The notes under the pieces were generated by a model. That model was not told the origin of the DNA, made no database searches, and was given only the letters and a program-made list of their open reading frames with translations. This document shows positions 34,113-36,203 of a stretch of DNA of 64,000 nt, in pieces. Where the stretch lies: positions 1-64,000 of the forward strand of contig SVER01000012.1 in the NCBI GenBank assembly GCA_015057315.1, given 5' to 3'. The DNA comes from Pseudobutyrivibrio ruminis. GTDB taxonomy: Bacteria; Bacillota; Clostridia; Lachnospirales; Lachnospiraceae. Made by a program: the position numbers and the translations under genes. Numbering within the stretch: the first letter of the stretch is position 1; every line of letters starts with the position of its first letter.

Positions 34113-34871
34113 TTAACCTAATTTCTTTTTCTGCTGACGCCCAGTAATCTTAACCAAGATTGGATATGGCACAAGATGTAAAAAAATTGCTGCAAGCTTC
34201 ATTGCAAATGAAGGAACAATTATAAGCTTGCCCTTTTCGATTCCTCTTATAGCCTCATCAACACACTGATTAGCACTTATTCCCTTTAATGCAAAAACAA
34301 CATCAGCTCTTTCATTAAATTCAGTATCAACTGGACCTGGACAAAGTGCACTTACCCTTACCGGGCTTCCCATTTCTTTAAGCTCCATTGCAACAGCCCT
34401 TGTTAGGCTGGTAACATAAGCCTTGCTTGCATAATATGTAGCCATATATGGACCTGCTGGAAGCAGTCCAGCTGAGGATGCTACATTTAATATACGTCCA
34501 TGGCCATTAGCATGCATTTTCTGAAGAATCCCTTTGAACAAAATATGCATGGCCATATCATTAACCTTTATCATATTAACTTCTTTTTCTATATCTGTTT
34601 CCAGAAATGCCCCGGCGAGGCCAAAGCCTGCATTATTTATAAATATATCAATATCTTCATCTTTGAGTGCCTCTAACAATTCAAAGCATTGCTTCTTTTT
34701 GCTTAAATCAAAGGAGTATATCTCTACAGGAACCTCCAACTCTTCCTTAACCTGCTCCATTCTATCAGTTCTACGTCCAGTTACAATAAGTCTGTAGCCT
34801 AAGGCCGCATATCTTCTAGCAAACTCCATTCCAATACCTGATGTTGCTCCTGTAATAAGTGCTGTTTTCAT
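34113..34871 (-). CDS. short-chain dehydrogenase/reductase
   Basis: MKTALITGATSGIGMEFARR, NNAGFG, YYASKAYV. Confidence 0.85.
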   Translation of the reverse strand: MKTALITGATSGIGMEFARRYAALGYRLIVTGRRTDRMEQVKEELEVPVEIYSFDLSKKKQCFELLEALKDEDIDIFINNAGFGLAGAFLETDIEKEVNMIKVNDMAMHILFKGILQKMHANGHGRILNVASSAGLLPAGPYMATYYASKAYVTSLTRAVAMELKEMGSPVRVSALCPGPVDTEFNERADVVFALKGISANQCVDEAIRGIEKGKLIIVPSFAMKLAAIFLHLVPYPILVKITGRQQKKKLG

Positions 34872-34947
34872 AACTGCCTCTCCTTTTCTTGCCTGTTTAA
34901 CTAGTTTCATATAACTATTTTAAAGAATATGCACTTATAAATCTATA

Positions 34948-35206
34948 GGTTCTTGTTTTTCATCAGAAAAACAAGAACCGGACATAGACCAATATTTTCT
35001 GAAAGAAAATATTGCTTGGCAACGCCAAGTTCTTGTGGGCTTTTTCCTTAAGTAGCCCACAAGAAGTCATAGATTCTTGAAAAACATCAGTTTTTCAGGA
35101 ATCGTAAATACCATCAAAATAGATTTATCTATTTTGATGTCCTGCAAAGCAGGATTCTTGCTGATAATTTCATTGTTCTATCAGCAAGAAGTCATCTTTT
35201 TATGAC
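34948..35206. repeat. array of about nine contiguous hairpins (palindrome array)
   Basis: stems at 34948-34979, 34990-35014, 35015-35029, 35030-35065, 35072-35103, 35112-35139, 35140-35154, 35155-35190, 35191-35206. Confidence 0.9.
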
Positions 35207-35237: not shown

Positions 35238-35564
35238 TTTAAGTGAAATTACCACTCATCTCCAATCCACTTAAATAATATAAGTGTAATTTATTCTTTT
35301 TAAAAATCCACTTATCACATATTTTTAAAATGTAAGTGTTTTTCGCTGTTTCCCTTATAAAGCTTACTATTTTCCTTTATTATTAGGTGTTTTAATATAT
35401 CATTATTATTCCACTTAACTTTTTTGTAAGTGAATTTTAGTGTACAGCTAATAACACTTAAAAGTCACCTTAAAAAGTGCGTTTTCTATGATGTTCATCA
35501 AAATCCACTTAACTTTTTTTCGAAGGGCATAAGCGCTTTTTTATTTTTCAGAAATACACTTAAC
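35238..35564. repeat. cluster of TTAAGTG(GAT)/(ATC)CACTTAA motifs in both orientations
   Basis: CACTTA at 35269, 35309, 35412, 35455, 35507, 35557 and TAAGTG/AAGTG at 35240, 35281, 35333, 35427, 35475. Confidence 0.7.
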
Positions 35565-35588
35565 ATTTTCCAATCTCCTTTTTAAATT

Positions 35589-36203
35589 TTAAGACTGCAT
35601 ATTAAAAACAGGCATGGCATCTATCACTTCCTGCAATGGAGTCCATGACATAACATCAAAATCGTCGTCTTCATCAATTCCATTACCTAAAGTACCTTTG
35701 TCATCCTCATCCTTTGCCCTCTTTTTTGTCTTTATTTTATCCTCAGTCACATCCTCCTTTTTATCAGGAAGATTTTTATAGCCATCTGACTTTTTGAATT
35801 CCTTTATTACTTCATCCATTGCTGCCACAATCGCAGCCTTATATGGATCCTTGTCAGAGATTCCATTCAGGGCATGAAAGATTATATCGTTTACTTCCTC
35901 TTTAGAATCCGCCTTTTCAAGCTGATGTTCTAAAGCCTCTGCCATTCTTCTAATTCTTAAATATTGCTGATATAACTCGGGATTATGTTCCTTAAGATAT
36001 GTTTCTTCCTTAGATGTTAGCCGCTTTCCACTTTTGATCTTTGCCTGGATTTTCTCCATCATTTTAGAATCATCTTCTTTGTTAGCCATGGTAGATTGTT
36101 CTTTAAGTCTTCTCACCACATCAGTAAGCTGATTTGATACATACTGACCTGATTTGCTCTCATTATTTAATTTCATTGTTCCTAAATCAAAAGATATCTG
36201 CAT
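35589..36203 (-). CDS. hypothetical charged helical protein
   Basis: 205-codon ORF, Lys/Glu/Asp-rich, SD upstream. Confidence 0.6.
   Translation of the reverse strand: MQISFDLGTMKLNNESKSGQYVSNQLTDVVRRLKEQSTMANKEDDSKMMEKIQAKIKSGKRLTSKEETYLKEHNPELYQQYLRIRRMAEALEHQLEKADSKEEVNDIIFHALNGISDKDPYKAAIVAAMDEVIKEFKKSDGYKNLPDKKEDVTEDKIKTKKRAKDEDDKGTLGNGIDEDDDFDVMSWTPLQEVIDAMPVFNMQS

Follow-up and report, generated by a model that had tools for sequence, protein, structure and literature searches.

The hairpin array at positions 34948-35206 of the window, the stretch of 64,000 nucleotides of Pseudobutyrivibrio ruminis DNA analysed here, is made up of two tandem copies (A and B) of one dispersed element of about 122 bp. 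The two copies probably represent successive insertions of a non-autonomous mobile element that uses an AT-centred target, and whose fold on the + strand was selected while the element spread. The segment consists almost entirely of hairpins and reads as the initial annotation had described. Its + strand was predicted to fold at -114.6 kcal/mol, versus a mean of -51.4 kcal/mol for dinucleotide shuffles of the segment (z = -13), and the - strand gave z = -14 against shuffles of the same kind. Both copies were characterized by the same succession of structures, from left to right: a hairpin H1 (14 bp, loop ATCA), a spacer, H2 (11-12 bp), H3 (6 bp, loop AAC or AAA) and H4 (12 bp, with a 12-nt loop). 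This plan was common to A and B, and the letters of almost every stem were mostly unlike. The suggestion that the array is modular, and not a single repeat in decay, was borne out: it holds two copies of a four-hairpin module. The recurring hairpin edges that had been pointed out are the element's own ends, AT-AGRTTYTTG on the left and CAAGAAGTC-AT on the right. The motif formed by H4 and the adjoining edge occurred exactly twice in the window, with none expected from shuffles.

Copy A (AGGTTCTTG...CAAGAAGTC, 122 bp) occupies positions 34947-35068 on the + strand, matched the R1 covariance model with 136.9 bits and had dispersed copies in its own genome. It is preceded by a target AT at 34945-34946, an edge typical of distinct copies. 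Folding and covariation delimited H1 (34948-34979, 14 bp, loop ATCA), H2 (34990-35014, 11 bp, loop GAA) and H3 (35015-35029, 6 bp, loop AAC), all on the + strand, as is H4 (35030-35065, 12 bp, 12-nt loop), which was delimited by folding and the H4-plus-edge motif. A single AT at 35069-35070 is common to both copies, as in neighbouring pairs elsewhere. Copy B (AGATTCTTG...CAAGAAGTC, 123 bp), at 35071-35193 on the + strand, matched R1 with 124 bits, and a further copy of it was found at G000:C30:93822-93953. Its hairpins, also on the + strand, were placed by folding: H1 (35072-35103, loop ATCA), H2 (35112-35139, 12 bp, loop TTTA), H3 (35140-35154, 6 bp, loop AAA) and H4 (35155-35190, 12 bp, 12-nt loop), the last also carrying the H4-plus-edge motif. 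The AT at 35194-35195 was assigned to the right edge of copy B from the sequence and the edge statistics of distinct copies.

An apparent ninth hairpin, GTCAT-CTTTTT-ATGAC (35191-35206, + strand), lies outside the element and joins its GTCAT end with the host flank. In genome G006 (L047), copy A is alone at the same place and the corresponding flank reads GTCAACTTTTTATGAC, without full pairing; from this sequence comparison, the pairing arises by chance where the element end meets host DNA. The array of about nine hairpins initially reported is real: eight are part of the element, four in each copy, and the ninth is this host join. A pseudoknot between the spacer and the H4 loop, judged by eye, was dropped, as it is broken by a variant spacer in L145.

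To describe the distribution of the family, we searched genomes at several taxonomic scales. The array segment matched 24 places in its own genome, and the element was present in 25 of the 29 Pseudobutyrivibrio genomes. Strains with copies include P. xylanivorans DSM 14809 and P. ruminis DSM 9787, and G001, G017 and G021 are among the genomes that gave no match. No convincing match was obtained in 32 genomes of other genera, with one marginal hit (E = 3.6e-4). An IUPAC pattern of H4 and its edge, run over 85,462 species genomes, retrieved 83 stretches, all with Pseudobutyrivibrio titles except one contig labelled 'uncultured Lachnospiraceae'. Similarly, the R1 model identified copies in both Pseudobutyrivibrio members sampled and none in the other genomes of the family that were sampled (395 genomes, 333 genera); in each genome, scoring covered the eight top-ranking candidates. 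Phage, plasmid and IMG/VR collections gave no matches to the element, the best Rfam score was 21.8 bits (gathering cut-off, 41), with no credible family, and our literature search found no earlier description. In these searches, the element was convincingly found in no genus other than Pseudobutyrivibrio, which inhabits rumen and gut. Many copies were identical or nearly identical at unrelated, non-orthologous loci, which implies recent spread. The absence of homologous hairpin arrays elsewhere had been proposed as an argument against a functional element; instead, a dispersed family was found across the genus.

Distinct copies were flanked by AT at the left edge in 98 out of 118 cases and at the right edge in 106 out of 118. 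In three comparisons with orthologous empty sites (L091 versus L100, L033 and L157; L146 versus L158; and L036 versus L127), the joined flanks were uninterrupted and carried one AT, or in its place a dinucleotide differing by one base. The presence of AT on both sides of the element, against only one AT where the site is empty, would result from a 2-bp AT duplication and equally from an insertion that splits A from T and duplicates nothing. TA as the duplicated dinucleotide was ruled out, since tail-to-tail junctions read GTC-AT-GAC and right edges read AT, not always ATA. The target is a weak, A+T-rich palindrome centred on AT, AAnnY-AT-RnnTT, and base frequencies to the left of the element mirrored the complement of those to the right up to about 10 bp. 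The joined element ends, CAAGAAGTC-AT-AGRTTYTTG, fit the same pattern, and neighbouring copies had one AT in common in head-tail, head-head and tail-tail pairs. The terminal inverted repeats were short and imperfect (ATAGRTTYTTG versus ATGACTTCTTG), and the two ends were interchangeable in the single-hairpin units described below. Overall, the AT-centred symmetric target and the shared AT junctions indicate a two-fold-symmetric enzyme at the element edges.

Compensatory covariation, whose absence had also been named as an argument against function, was strong. Among the 98 distinct copies in which all four hairpins could be parsed, double compensatory changes were observed in 32 of the 44 base pairs. 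In a set of 22 diverse copies (H1, H3 and H4), 22 of the 31 tested pairs exhibited double changes and 99.7% of cells were paired. None of 500 shuffles reached the observed values, and slid controls collapsed. Imperfect pairs were then counted on the + strand in the copies that passed a structure filter (137 out of 149), the score of which slightly favours G·T over A·C. Among the imperfect pair types present in at least three copies, 11 were G·T and none A·C; rarer types were balanced (16 and 17, respectively). When the changes were mapped onto a tree of the copies, 11 to G·T and none to A·C fell on internal branches (p = 0.0005), versus 39 and 19, respectively, at the tips. The inherited wobbles being all G·T, the + strand fold was probably selected while the element spread, and selection on the fold would be relaxed once copies are resident and decaying. 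Because G·T is better tolerated than A·C in RNA and in single-stranded DNA alike, the selected molecule could be either one. The earlier proposal of a structured ncRNA was upheld in part, by the strong covariation and the strand-specific wobble; however, single-stranded DNA gives an equal signal, and copies occur in both orientations relative to host genes.

The most likely course of events is that an enzyme encoded elsewhere recognises the short ends together with the hairpin structure and moves the element in trans. The element would integrate at the weakly palindromic, A+T-rich site AAnnY-AT-RnnTT and leave AT on each side; insertion of copy B at the AT edge of an existing copy A, or the reverse, would then give the eight-hairpin array. 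The two-fold symmetry of the target suggests a dimeric enzyme working on double-stranded DNA, which may be a DDE transposase or a serine recombinase. IS630/Tc1-mariner elements make a 2-bp duplication in a palindromic A+T-rich target. The element resembles the MITEs derived from that family in its palindromic A+T-rich target and in the 2-bp AT at its edges, but its centre is AT, not TA, and the IS630-type DDE_3 domain (PF13358) had no match in the 29 genus genomes. Serine recombinases were few in the genus set and had no element ends nearby. An exact-pattern search of ten genomes retrieved no long element bounded by the consensus ends, and the genes beside copies included no recurring gene family and no adjacent recombinase. 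These results, covering ten genomes for the ends and the genus set for gene families, count against this reading, as they yielded neither an autonomous partner nor an adjacent mobiliser. Two candidates were rejected. In G003, what looked like an autonomous element of 1.16 kb was due to a chance match of an end adjoining an ordinary copy, and in G014, left ends paired over 0.95 kb corresponded to a single-hairpin unit and a chance match.

The element is small, non-coding and dispersed, with moved copies and empty sites, and fits the general description of a MITE, apart from its short, imperfect terminal inverted repeats and the lack of a parent element in the ten genomes searched. Compared with bacterial MITEs such as those of the RUP, NEMIS and ERIC class, with features as given in PMC10969869, it is likewise small and non-coding, with an A+T-rich target, inverted ends, a putative short duplication and strong folding. 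It differs by ends that are only imperfectly inverted (TTCTTG/CAAGAA core), by its internal four-hairpin plan with pervasive stem replacement, and by the lack of a parental insertion sequence in the exact-pattern search of ten genomes. A more speculative possibility, which we put forward tentatively, is that the substrate is recognised mainly by its four ordered, folded hairpins, as RNA or single-stranded DNA, and not by sequence, and is integrated into the symmetric double-stranded AT target by a transposition system of undescribed type.

It is unlikely that the element is REPIN-like and moves as single-stranded DNA by a Y1/HUH transposase (IS200/IS605 or RAYT), inserting 3' of a YAT motif with TCAT as its right end. 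The YAT left edge and the TCAT right edge do fit a target-mimicking right end, the hairpins at both ends, the strand-specific wobble and a structure more conserved than the sequence would be expected, and REPINs too show compensatory stem changes (PMC3116915). However, the Y1_Tnp domain (PF01797; Y1/RAYT) was absent from the own genome and present in only 10 of the 29 genus genomes, the ends of an IS200-like element in G003, considered as a possible mover, were unrelated, and a target with two-fold symmetry around AT is unexpected for a strand-specific HUH enzyme. With REPs and REPINs mobilised by RAYTs, the element shares its short, dispersed, intergenic palindromes, found singly and in clusters near gene 3' ends. 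Its hairpins are likewise kept by compensatory change and include G·T stem pairs, which REP stems often contain (PMC3733652). In contrast to these families, it comprises four distinct hairpins over about 122 bp, versus a REP palindrome of 20-40 bp; its ends (AT-AGR... and ...AAGTC-AT) have no unpaired GTAG or CGTC tag; AT is shared, or may be duplicated, at its edges, within a symmetric target; its own genome has no RAYT or Y1 gene; and no gene family recurs beside copies. The initial description as REP/BIME-like was therefore right as to kind (dispersed, intergenic, mobile and palindromic) and wrong as to family, the GTAG/CGTC tag and the RAYT gene being missing. CGTC-tagged REPs, including Rickettsia RPE-4 and RPE-6, are also palindromes with a short tag ending in GTC and no known dedicated transposase, but they have single stems of 8-9 bp in units of 20-40 bp, are reported from other phyla and carry CGTC where the element has AAGTC (PMC3733652). 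In behaviour, REPINs and MITEs are nearest, and we regard the element as most plausibly MITE/REPIN-like, non-autonomous and mobilised in trans; it is set apart by its four-hairpin plan with wholesale stem replacement, its strand-specific wobble, its AT-centred symmetric target and the lack of a Y1/RAYT partner.

We also consider it improbable that the element is a structured RNA useful to the host, for example an mRNA stabiliser, insulator or terminator, repeated by happenstance. The covariation and the G·U-type wobble on one strand would agree with such an RNA, as would the position of copies, which sit in ordinary intergenic DNA, closer to a gene 3' end than to the next start (median distance of about 52-61 bp to a stop codon, against about 150 bp to the start that follows). 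The orientation relative to host genes was mixed, however, with 32 co-directed and 48 opposed copies, which argues against a simple sense-strand role in mRNA, so that a 3'-UTR RNA function is disfavoured. In the window, the array is flanked by two ORFs on the - strand, a putative SDR-type dehydrogenase (34113-34910; assigned by eye from sequence) and an ORF of 204 aa (35589-36203), and the element contained one terminator-like and one weak promoter-like match only, both on the - strand. Moreover, the copies are young and identical, the sites that they occupy are not orthologous and have empty counterparts, and no Rfam family corresponds to them.

It is very improbable that template-switch (quasipalindrome) correction keeps the palindromes perfect while the fold itself is not selected. 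This process needs no function and would account for stems that are nearly perfect in many different sequences, and the rare wobble events, about equal for G·T and A·C, are as it predicts. Mutation or template-switch correction alone should nevertheless treat G·T and A·C alike, and is disfavoured by the asymmetry of the inherited events. The recombinase landing array initially suggested, that is, a protein-binding or recombinase-site array assembled in place (a landing pad, integron-like), is extremely unlikely, since copies mostly stand alone as insertions in ordinary intergenic DNA and no recombinase gene adjoins them, even if edges recur, junctions share AT, the joined ends form an inverted-repeat site resembling the target and a two-fold-symmetric enzyme is indicated at the edges.

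The 98 distinct copies provide a well-sampled natural record of a small mobile DNA in which nearly every stem has been swapped and the four hairpins have been kept, with a strand-specific signature suggesting that a folded single strand was selected during spread. They make the movement of structure-recognised elements without a RAYT enzyme testable, and the repeat family can be used for annotating and typing Pseudobutyrivibrio genomes.

In addition to full copies, we observed shorter units (38-46 bp, 26 distinct ones) with one hairpin only, which derives from H1 or H4. They are flanked by AT, with either end type on either side (L-R, R-R or L-L edges); loci with such units include L065, L099, L109, L286, L287, L290 and L292. 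One site held a full unit in one genome and a solo H1 in the other (L041 versus L152), so at least that solo unit is an internal deletion; the others may be deletions too, or some may move on their own. In two different loci on Pseudobutyrivibrio MAG contigs (L104 and L131), copy A exhibited a small extra palindromic insert, GAAGAGATAACTCTTTAGAGTTATCTGCC..., in the H3 loop. One intergenic site held copy B and an interrupted copy A in one genome (G000:C30, L010) and a single inverted copy A in another (G006:C173, L031), which indicates that the site was repeatedly hit or rearranged.

Other repeats were observed close to copies. Beside the array, positions 35240-35590 of the window contain a second, unrelated, dispersed A+T-rich repeat. 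Its stretches are about 250-350 bp long and carry TAAGTG / CACTTA boxes that switch orientation about every 30 bp; nine further matches were found in the own genome (66-78% identity). Another repeat, with GAGTATGACTTT / AAAGTCATACTC boxes, was observed in the set L010 (G000:C30:93300-94400), L015, L016, L017 and L089; it breaks copy A within hairpin H2 and, at several other loci, is joined to the right half of that copy, which looks like duplication of an already fused unit. A comparable array of boxes with another word, TAGATAGTAA / TTACTATCTA, was observed at L030, in the flank of the copy at G020:C5:110313; in Pseudobutyrivibrio, box arrays whose words differ from locus to locus may form a class.
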